Shown here piece by piece: positions 46,332 through 48,191 of a DNA stretch of 64,000 nt (the stretch's first letter is position 1; each line of letters opens with the position of its first letter). Position numbers and translations under genes: made by a program. Location of the stretch: assembly GCA_026003335.1 (NCBI GenBank), contig BPHB01000001.1, positions 1,947,001 through 2,011,000 on the forward strand, read 5' to 3'. The notes under the pieces were generated by a model, which was given only the letters and a program-made list of their open reading frames with translations, searched no databases and was not told the origin of the DNA. This stretch comes from Chitinophagales bacterium. Its GTDB lineage: Bacteria > Bacteroidota > Bacteroidia > Chitinophagales > CAIOSU01.

Positions 46332-47243
46332 TTAAAGCACCTCATAGCCAGTGGAGGATGCAATCTTGCGAACCCACTTGTATCCCAGCACCACCTCATG
46401 GCTGCCACTGCTCACTGTGCGCAGATTGGAAGTTGTGATGTCGTAAGCATACCCTATCTCTATCATTTTTTTAATCAGCACTCCGGCAAAAAGCGCTGCA
46501 GCATCACCGGTGCGATAGGTTGCTCCGAGCCATACCATGTGGTTGTACCAGGCTCGCAGGGTAATATCTCCCTCCACCGGAGCAGCCTTTACAGCCTTAA
46601 TCAGGAAAGAGGGTTCCAGTTCAAACTTCTTTGCCACAGTAAACCGATAGCCCGCAGCAAGAAAATAGTGCGGTATCTGGCGCAGGTCAGAAGGGTCGTT
46701 TTTGTTAATCTGGGGTACGGAAAATCCGGCATATAATCCTTTCCACCTGTAGTAAATGCCCAGACCAATATCGGGAGCAACTTTGCCATCCTGCACTTCA
46801 GCCACAGCCGCATCATTAACCTCCCGAATATGAATATCCTCATCCAGATCAAGAGCCACAATACCCAGCGATATACCTGCGGCAATCATGCTTTCCTTCT
46901 TCAGCCGGATGCCGTAGGAGAGGGCCACATTAAAACCGATATTTCTAAGAGCACCGGTTTTGTCATGGTATATATTTCCACCGATACCAAGGGGGAATTT
47001 TTTGAGTGACCCGCAACCCGAGAAAGTTTGCGTGTGCGGCTGACCCTGCAGACCAGCCCACTGATACCGGTATAAAAATTTAAAATCCGCTCCGTTCTTC
47101 ACGGAGGCTATAGCTGGGTTGTAGAAAAAATCATTGAATACATACTGAGTAAACAACGGCTTCTGCTGGGCACTGCTAACAAAAGATAGAATCATAAGCA
47201 GCGCTCCCGTGAGGACACAACAAAGAAGAAATTGCCGATGCAT
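46332..47243 (-). CDS. PorP/SprF family type IX secretion membrane protein (stand-alone)
   Basis: A 303-residue outer-membrane barrel. The signal peptide (about 1-26, ending SFVSSAQQ) precedes the signature PLFTQYVFNDFFYNPAIASVKN. Barrel strands follow, such as GIGGNIYHDKTGALRN and HYFLAAGYRF, with EIGYAYDITTSNLR near the end. Unlike the copy at 18929-19951, no cargo or PorE-like gene adjoins it. It may be the general PorP subunit or a partner for cargo encoded elsewhere. It is divergent from the exosortase pair. Confidence 0.9.
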   Translation of the reverse strand: MHRQFLLCCVLTGALLMILSFVSSAQQKPLFTQYVFNDFFYNPAIASVKNGADFKFLYRYQWAGLQGQPHTQTFSGCGSLKKFPLGIGGNIYHDKTGALRNIGFNVALSYGIRLKKESMIAAGISLGIVALDLDEDIHIREVNDAAVAEVQDGKVAPDIGLGIYYRWKGLYAGFSVPQINKNDPSDLRQIPHYFLAAGYRFTVAKKFELEPSFLIKAVKAAPVEGDITLRAWYNHMVWLGATYRTGDAAALFAGVLIKKMIEIGYAYDITTSNLRTVSSGSHEVVLGYKWVRKIASSTGYEVL

Positions 47244-47400: not shown

Positions 47401-47595
47401 ATGATGCGCAAGTTTTCGCCCCTATTATTCTGGATTGTTGCGGCATGTGTATGGCTTCTGCCCTCTGGGGTTTATGCTCAGCCAGGACCCCCTCCACCGC
47501 CCACCAGTGTTCCGGTTGACCCGTTGGCATGGGTTCTGCTTACCGGAGGAGCTATTGCGCTATACAACCATCATAAATCTAAAAATAAAAAATAA
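47401..47595 (+). CDS. 64-residue putative exosortase substrate with C-terminal sorting signal
   Basis: A 64-residue protein. An N-terminal signal peptide (about 1-26: FSPLLFWIVAACVWLLP, ending GVYA) is followed by a Pro-rich spacer (QPGPPPPPTS). The C-terminus has a short PVDP motif (38-41), one hydrophobic helix (WVLLTGGAIALY) and a basic tail (HHKSKNKK). Motif, helix and positive tail together are the layout of sortase-like sorting signals. It resembles the short PID-type signals found with Bacteroidetes exosortases. After processing at both ends, almost nothing but the proline spacer would remain. It is 35 bases before the exosortase gene on the same strand. Confidence 0.72.
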   Translation: MMRKFSPLLFWIVAACVWLLPSGVYAQPGPPPPPTSVPVDPLAWVLLTGGAIALYNHHKSKNKK

Positions 47596-47630
47596 ACCCC
47601 TCTCATTCAGCTTACTTTATCACTTGGCAT

Positions 47631-48191
47631 ATGGCCAATGAAAAAACTACCACCACAAAAAAGCTGGGCAGCCTGTTTGTAAAACTCGTGCTGATCTGGC
47701 TTTCCTGGAAGGTGTTTATCTGGATTGCCGGAGAAGAGAGCACTCCTGTTGAAGACCGGATGTTTCCGGCATTCAGCGCTTACTGGGAACAGCTCAACGA
47801 CTGGTTACGGATTGTTATTCTTCACGCTGCTAACTGGCTGCTTCATATGCTGGGCTATGAAACCGTATTGGAGCATAATTATGTGCTTCGTGTGCTGGGG
47901 CATAGAGGTATTGCCCTGGGTAACTATTGTTTGGGGTTTCAACTTATGTATTATTTCATCATGTTGGTGATGATATCCGATCTTTCATGGCCTATTAAGG
48001 TTTTTGCATCAATAACAGGGGTGGTTCTAATACAGGTCATGAACATACTAAGGGTGGCCGGATTAAATCTTATAGATGTGCATTACAACCAATACATGGT
48101 GACACTGAGCCATGACTACATTTTCAATTTTCTCGTCTTCGGATTGTTACTGCTGTTTTATTACTGGCTGTTGAAAATGAGTTCCCGCTGA
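47631..48191 (+). CDS. exosortase/archaeosortase-family membrane protein
   Basis: A 186-residue protein with about five to six transmembrane segments. The three residues proposed as the family's catalytic centre are present in order: Cys100 in ALGNYCLGFQ, Arg141 in NILRVAGLN and His161 in TLSHDYIFNFLVF. Exosortases are membrane cysteine transpeptidase-like enzymes that cleave C-terminal sorting signals and may transfer the protein to a carrier. The short size fits Bacteroidetes types such as XrtF or XrtX; I cannot choose between them. Its neighbour upstream carries a matching signal. Confidence 0.88.
   Translation: MANEKTTTTKKLGSLFVKLVLIWLSWKVFIWIAGEESTPVEDRMFPAFSAYWEQLNDWLRIVILHAANWLLHMLGYETVLEHNYVLRVLGHRGIALGNYCLGFQLMYYFIMLVMISDLSWPIKVFASITGVVLIQVMNILRVAGLNLIDVHYNQYMVTLSHDYIFNFLVFGLLLLFYYWLLKMSSR

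Follow-up and report, generated by a model that had tools for sequence, protein, structure and literature searches.

Sortase-like enzymes that act on tripartite C-terminal signals are believed to be transpeptidases that leave a new C-terminal moiety (PMC11980579). In the PEP-CTERM/EpsH system, a Cys/Arg/His integral-membrane transpeptidase-like enzyme is combined with a signal of this kind. In the XrtX/PID-CTERM system (NF046081, NF046080), a small PID-CTERM protein with a motif, a helix and a basic tail is encoded beside the exosortase. XrtF (TIGR04128) is a small exosortase of T9SS-bearing Bacteroidota and the only one of the named systems with a known phenotype (PMC10936215). In F. johnsoniae, deletion of xrtF or of its neighbour impairs colonisation, biofilm and zorbs, and T9SS mutants are likewise impaired. 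The F. johnsoniae study leaves the XrtF substrates to future work and expects them to be unlike PEP-CTERM proteins (PMC10936215). In the literature searched, no experiment or biochemistry on any PID-CTERM protein was found, nor was the term PID-CTERM, or XrtX in the exosortase sense. The portions of that literature that were consulted contain no description of the cargo–micro-gene pairing reported below or of a link between exosortases and the T9SS.

The window (the whole stretch of 64,000 nucleotides analysed, from a Chitinophagales genome) contains a locus that shares features with each of these systems. A micro-substrate gene for a 64-aa protein (47401..47595, + strand) lies 35 bp upstream of a gene for a 186-aa enzyme of the exosortase superfamily (47631..48191, + strand). 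Both reading frames and their spacing are exactly where the first-pass annotation had placed them. The translation of the micro-gene runs, in order, MMRKFSPLLFWIVAACVWLLPSGVYA, QPGPPPPPTSVPVD, P, LAWVLLTGGAIALY and NHHKSKNKK. It begins with a predicted Sec signal peptide (47401..47478, + strand), for which the cut is placed between VYA and Q, an A-Q junction that recurs in many relatives. If the protein is also cleaved next to PVD, the predicted leftover peptide is QPGPPPPPTSVPVD, with 14 residues (47479..47520, + strand). The sorting signal, PVDP-LAW followed by a hydrophobic helix (47512..47565, + strand), fits the pattern P[VIL]DPxxW, and the basic C-terminal tail NHHKSKNKK (47566..47592, + strand) has counterparts in the relatives, which also end in basic tails. 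The exosortase gene is followed on its 3' side by a convergent gene for a thioredoxin-like protein. A gene for a PorP/SprF-type T9SS membrane protein (46332-47243, - strand) diverges from the micro-gene and is a possible further link to the T9SS.

The NCBIfam and Pfam profiles give no match to the 64-aa ORF, and the PID-CTERM model NF046080 (cut-off 26 bits) gives none at E<=1. The micro-ORF is nevertheless found at E=8e-10 by an HMM built from 97 members, all from other genomes, in a search of the 609 window ORFs that are 30 aa or longer, with the runner-up at E=0.39. A PID-type profile search, as proposed in the first-pass annotation, fails with the curated model and succeeds with the HMM of foreign members. 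This independent profile confirms the earlier description of the small gene as a signal peptide, a proline spacer (here a Pro-rich stretch of 14 residues) and a PVDP-helix-basic tail, and it excludes a chance ORF. The PVD/PID-helix-basic tail is conserved among homologues, a point on which the earlier interpretation had been made to depend, and P38 and D40 are invariant in the alignment with relatives. The micro-protein fits the broad PID-CTERM class, in which a signal peptide and a short Pro-rich spacer are followed by P-[ILV]-D, a helix and a basic tail. Its motif is PVDP, not the PIDGG of the XrtX/PID-CTERM system, and PVD(P), not the PEP of the PEP-CTERM/EpsH system.

The window enzyme is a member of the exosortase/archaeosortase superfamily, as judged by its matches to TIGR04178 (39.3 bits, cut-off 23) and PF09721 (32.1 bits, cut-off 25.7). 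Cysteine-dependent cleavage is predicted. The predicted nucleophile Cys100 (codon 47928..47930, + strand), Arg141 (48051..48053, + strand) and His161 (48111..48113, + strand) are all present, as the first-pass annotation had read them, and are invariant across the alignment of 11 homologues. The enzyme falls below the curated cut-offs of the named families in which it was searched for. It scores 72.3 bits against XrtX (NF046081, cut-off 170), 60.2 bits against XrtY (NF046083, cut-off 160), its second-best and likewise sub-threshold named match, and 27.3 bits against XrtF (TIGR04128, cut-off 90). When 28 Bacteroidota exosortases are placed in a tree, the window enzyme clusters with those of its taxonomic family (support 89/90) and lies outside the group formed by XrtX and XrtF. 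At the locus itself, the XrtX-associated membrane protein (NF046082) is absent next to the enzyme, and so is the TIGR04127 partner of XrtF. Among curated systems, the locus belongs to the XrtX/XrtF–PID-CTERM kind, as a divergent member.

Across the phylum, an exosortase is present in 143 of 395 genomes and a PID_CTERM match at E<=0.01 in 73. The first-pass annotation had asked whether the small gene co-occurs with the enzyme, and it does: all 56 genomes with strong PID-CTERM matches carry an exosortase, as do 71 of all 73 PID-CTERM genomes, in counts that ignore kinship. The curated model misses the Flavobacterium type, and 72 of the 143 exosortase genomes have no match to it. Within the same order as the window genome, several other exosortases have a similar micro-gene directly upstream; the micro-proteins pass PID_CTERM and some of the enzymes pass XrtX. 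A single one of the PID frames listed is longer than 200 aa, and a genome can have as many as nine of them. With a heuristic assignment of the cleavage sites, the predicted leftover peptide, counted through PID, has a median length of 16 residues (quartiles 14-22), and an N-terminal Gln is assigned in 56 of 86 leftover peptides. The earlier estimate that only about a dozen residues would be left agrees with this median and with the 14 predicted in the window. In the dominant family, the leftover peptide very often reads QPGLPxAPxQAPID. At some loci the micro-gene stands at a recurrent housekeeping site without T9SS cargo, behind a fumarase/aspartase-like gene at L048 and L105 and behind metK at L051 and L062.

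In Flavobacterium, a micro-protein of 68-95 aa is encoded at the ribE locus in 77 of 80 named Flavobacterium-type records, F. johnsoniae CI04 included. The micro-genes (L180-L259) lie about 40 bp beyond ribE (for example L227, 4165-4419) or behind a P450-like gene (L213, 4331-4588). Their motif is usually PID or PIN, and in a 41-member Flavobacterium alignment P58, I59 and D60 are at least 90% conserved while the remainder has diverged. The curated PID_CTERM model barely detects these proteins. The genome behind F. johnsoniae CI04 contains one strong match (E=3e-22), which is at the ribE locus behind an inserted P450-like gene (L268, 1501-1713, - strand; MKIKRIVFLVFFLVLNVWNIVAQQDPPSPPVGTPEPPLDMPINEDLPYLIIAGLILGTAVIYRNKIKKASV). 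XrtF and its TIGR04127 partner are present in the sampled Flavobacterium genomes other than CI04. The ribE-locus micro-protein is a candidate XrtF substrate.

A recurrent gene pair appears in the neighbourhoods of the 88 PID loci sampled, which come from 52 genomes and favour high-scoring matches. The micro-gene lies directly behind a same-strand gene for a T9SS type A cargo (TIGR04183) at 64 of the 88 sampled loci, with a gap of 100 bp or less in 59 of the 64. A test of 72 same-strand upstream products gave 64 matches to TIGR04183. At least one such pairing occurs in 36 of the 52 sampled genomes, from eight families, with the window's own family in addition. These counts are phylogenetically non-independent, and one family contributes 56 of the 88 loci, 50 of them paired. 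Ten such genomes contain only 22-122 T9SS-domain genes each. The window genome contains at least 150: scoring covered 150 of its 324 candidates, and every one of these is a match. The paired cargoes carry the domain of T9SS type A sorting (TIGR04183, PorU), whereas the micro-proteins are without a T9SS domain and carry a signal for an inner-membrane exosortase. The surroundings also differ from those of the PEP-CTERM/EpsH system, with micro-protein substrates and T9SS cargo in place of an exopolysaccharide cluster. In four of six relatives from the window's family, the micro-gene is 3' of a T9SS-domain gene; the window micro-gene adjoins the enzyme, not a cargo. Tandem micro-genes, or adjoining units of cargo and micro-gene, are seen in single genomes (L057; L080/L081; L056/L091), the adjacent repeated units being L080/L081 and L056/L091.

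The N-terminal parts of the paired cargoes vary (Ice_binding, PKD, beta-helix, fn3/LTD and carboxypeptidase domains). Their C-terminal parts have a module in common, marked by an LxGNP(Y/F) motif and followed by the T9SS domain; examples are the upstream cargo genes at L290 (104-8194), L291 and L292. In 58 of the 63 paired cargoes, and in 0 of 36 unpaired T9SS cargoes, the motif GNP(Y/F) lies 300-430 residues before the C-terminal end, a count that is not blind because the motif was first spotted in the paired cargoes and the controls were fetched later. These 36 controls, none of which has a micro-gene, were drawn from the window genome and from nine others. In the cargo of the window genome and in three other cargoes of its family, an inserted PKD domain shifts the motif to 475-500. 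A Trp/SSPV motif, considered as a common mark of paired cargo, was rejected (9 of 47 paired cargoes and 1 of 34 controls); GNP(Y/F) separates the two groups far better. In several cargoes (for example L291 and L292), the Pfam scan reports nothing for the GNP module.

Across the phylum, tiny substrates of this kind prove to be the norm. A genome usually has several, and their genes usually come directly behind one class of T9SS cargo gene. Since the micro-genes pair with one cargo class, it is suggested that a peptide conjugate derived from the micro-protein acts in the display or anchoring of that cargo. A conjugate could also form while the pairing has another basis, with the micro-gene marking, regulating or being co-transcribed with the cargo, and the conjugate serving for example as a general envelope component. 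About a quarter of the sampled micro-genes are without a T9SS neighbour, being solitary or beside housekeeping genes (for example behind metK or fumC, or beside ribE), and Flavobacterium keeps its ribE micro-gene without cargo. In two relatives from the window's family, L027 (G004) and L028 (G003), the micro-gene is intact, but L027 has lost the cargo gene and L028 retains of it only a C-terminal T9SS remnant of 58 codons. Cargo is therefore not strictly required, which fits a conjugate without a display role. The confinement of the pairing to the GNP(Y/F) class argues against such a reading, and its spread over many families, together with the repeated units of cargo and micro-gene, exceeds what hitch-hiking would lead one to expect. 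An explanation of this type is unlikely, although it keeps an appreciable share of the probability.

The tight order of cargo and micro-gene, with its short gaps, would also suit a micro-protein that escorts the T9SS cargo as a chaperone at the inner membrane and is later removed by the exosortase, the freed peptide being waste. Held in the membrane, a Pro-rich stub would be placed at the exit point of Sec-exported cargo. The strong conservation of the leftover peptide in the dominant family is unlike waste, and an escort of this kind is judged improbable.

In the window genome, the first-pass annotation had proposed a dedicated pair of one enzyme and one substrate, which might make a released signalling or tag peptide. 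The two genes adjoin and the predicted product is tiny, as such a pair would have it. The enzyme of the window is the sole TIGR04178 match, and thus the one exosortase, in the 3.9-Mb genome. The genome-wide search for the C-terminal motif that had been recommended, run as a profile search, finds two further micro-proteins elsewhere, at L030 (65 aa, ending in AQVLPPSTNVPLDPFSWILLAGGAVIAGKKMYDDRKKN) and L035 (57 aa, ending in AQAPPPSAVPLDPASWLLLAGGGVLVGKKIYDSANKKEL). The 97-member HMM scores these paralogues at 8e-8 and 3e-7. All three micro-proteins have P[VL]DPxxW in common; the wider pattern P[VIL]DPxxW occurs at five sites in the genome, three of which are the micro-protein tails and two of which are internal to longer proteins. 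The predicted leftover peptides have 14, 12 and 11 residues. The L030 micro-gene is solitary and flanked by housekeeping genes. The L035 micro-gene begins 46 bp after a gene whose 2,697-aa product combines beta-helix and PKD domains with a T9SS type A domain. With one exosortase and three P[VL]DPxxW micro-proteins in the genome, one enzyme therefore has at least three micro-substrates, and a single dedicated substrate is ruled out. Six relatives from the window's family have the micro-gene away from the exosortase, and the numbers of micro-proteins per genome elsewhere also speak against a dedicated pair. A free signal would not be expected to pair with cargo; a link to T9SS surface proteins has become the likelier option, and the original proposal as a whole retains little probability. 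It is very improbable that the micro-proteins stay uncleaved as ordinary small membrane proteins and that the exosortase has other targets: the literature searched yielded no cleavage data, but PID/PVD is the most conserved part of otherwise fast-changing proteins, genomes with strong PID matches always have an exosortase, and the motif-helix-basic build is that of sortase-like substrates (PMC11980579).

The preferred reading, held with slightly better than even confidence, is that the window encodes an exosortase that serves three micro-substrates, together with one of the three, and that the resulting conjugates partner GNP-module T9SS cargo. The impairment in colonisation, biofilm and zorbs that F. 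johnsoniae xrtF and T9SS mutants have in common (PMC10936215) counts in its favour. In the proposed mechanism, Sec would export the micro-proteins of 57-65 aa and signal peptidase would leave an N-terminal Gln. Anchored by its C-terminal helix, the peptide would stay in the inner membrane and present P-[VL]-D on the periplasmic side, where the exosortase (Cys100/Arg141/His161) would cleave next to PVD. By analogy with sortase-like enzymes, we infer that the exosortase turns the micro-protein into a short peptide conjugate. Acting as a transpeptidase, it would transfer the Pro-rich peptide of 11-14 residues to a lipid or glycan acceptor. The conjugate would then be a co-expressed partner in the display, anchoring or assembly of GNP(Y/F)-module T9SS cargo. 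In the window genome, the cargo partner would be the beta-helix/PKD protein encoded ahead of the L035 micro-gene.

The surprise is the class of micro-substrates and its link to T9SS cargo, not a single pair. In the literature searched, the substrates of Bacteroidota exosortases appear experimentally uncharacterised. Candidate substrates can now be named to the gene level: each is a micro-protein whose short core spans about 11-16 residues, and as a group they are statistically tied to one class of T9SS cargo. The pairing suggests that two protein-sorting systems, the exosortase and the T9SS, work together, and such cooperation becomes directly testable. A wider generalisation is tentative and falls somewhat short of even probability: many exosortases of the Bacteroidota may not have large surface proteins as their main targets but make short Pro-rich peptide conjugates from micro-proteins that are the genetic partners of GNP-class T9SS cargo, and the ribE micro-protein may be the missing XrtF substrate. 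If this is true, the exosortase and the T9SS would jointly build the cell surface, and the ribE micro-protein would lie behind the colonisation and biofilm defects of xrtF mutants.
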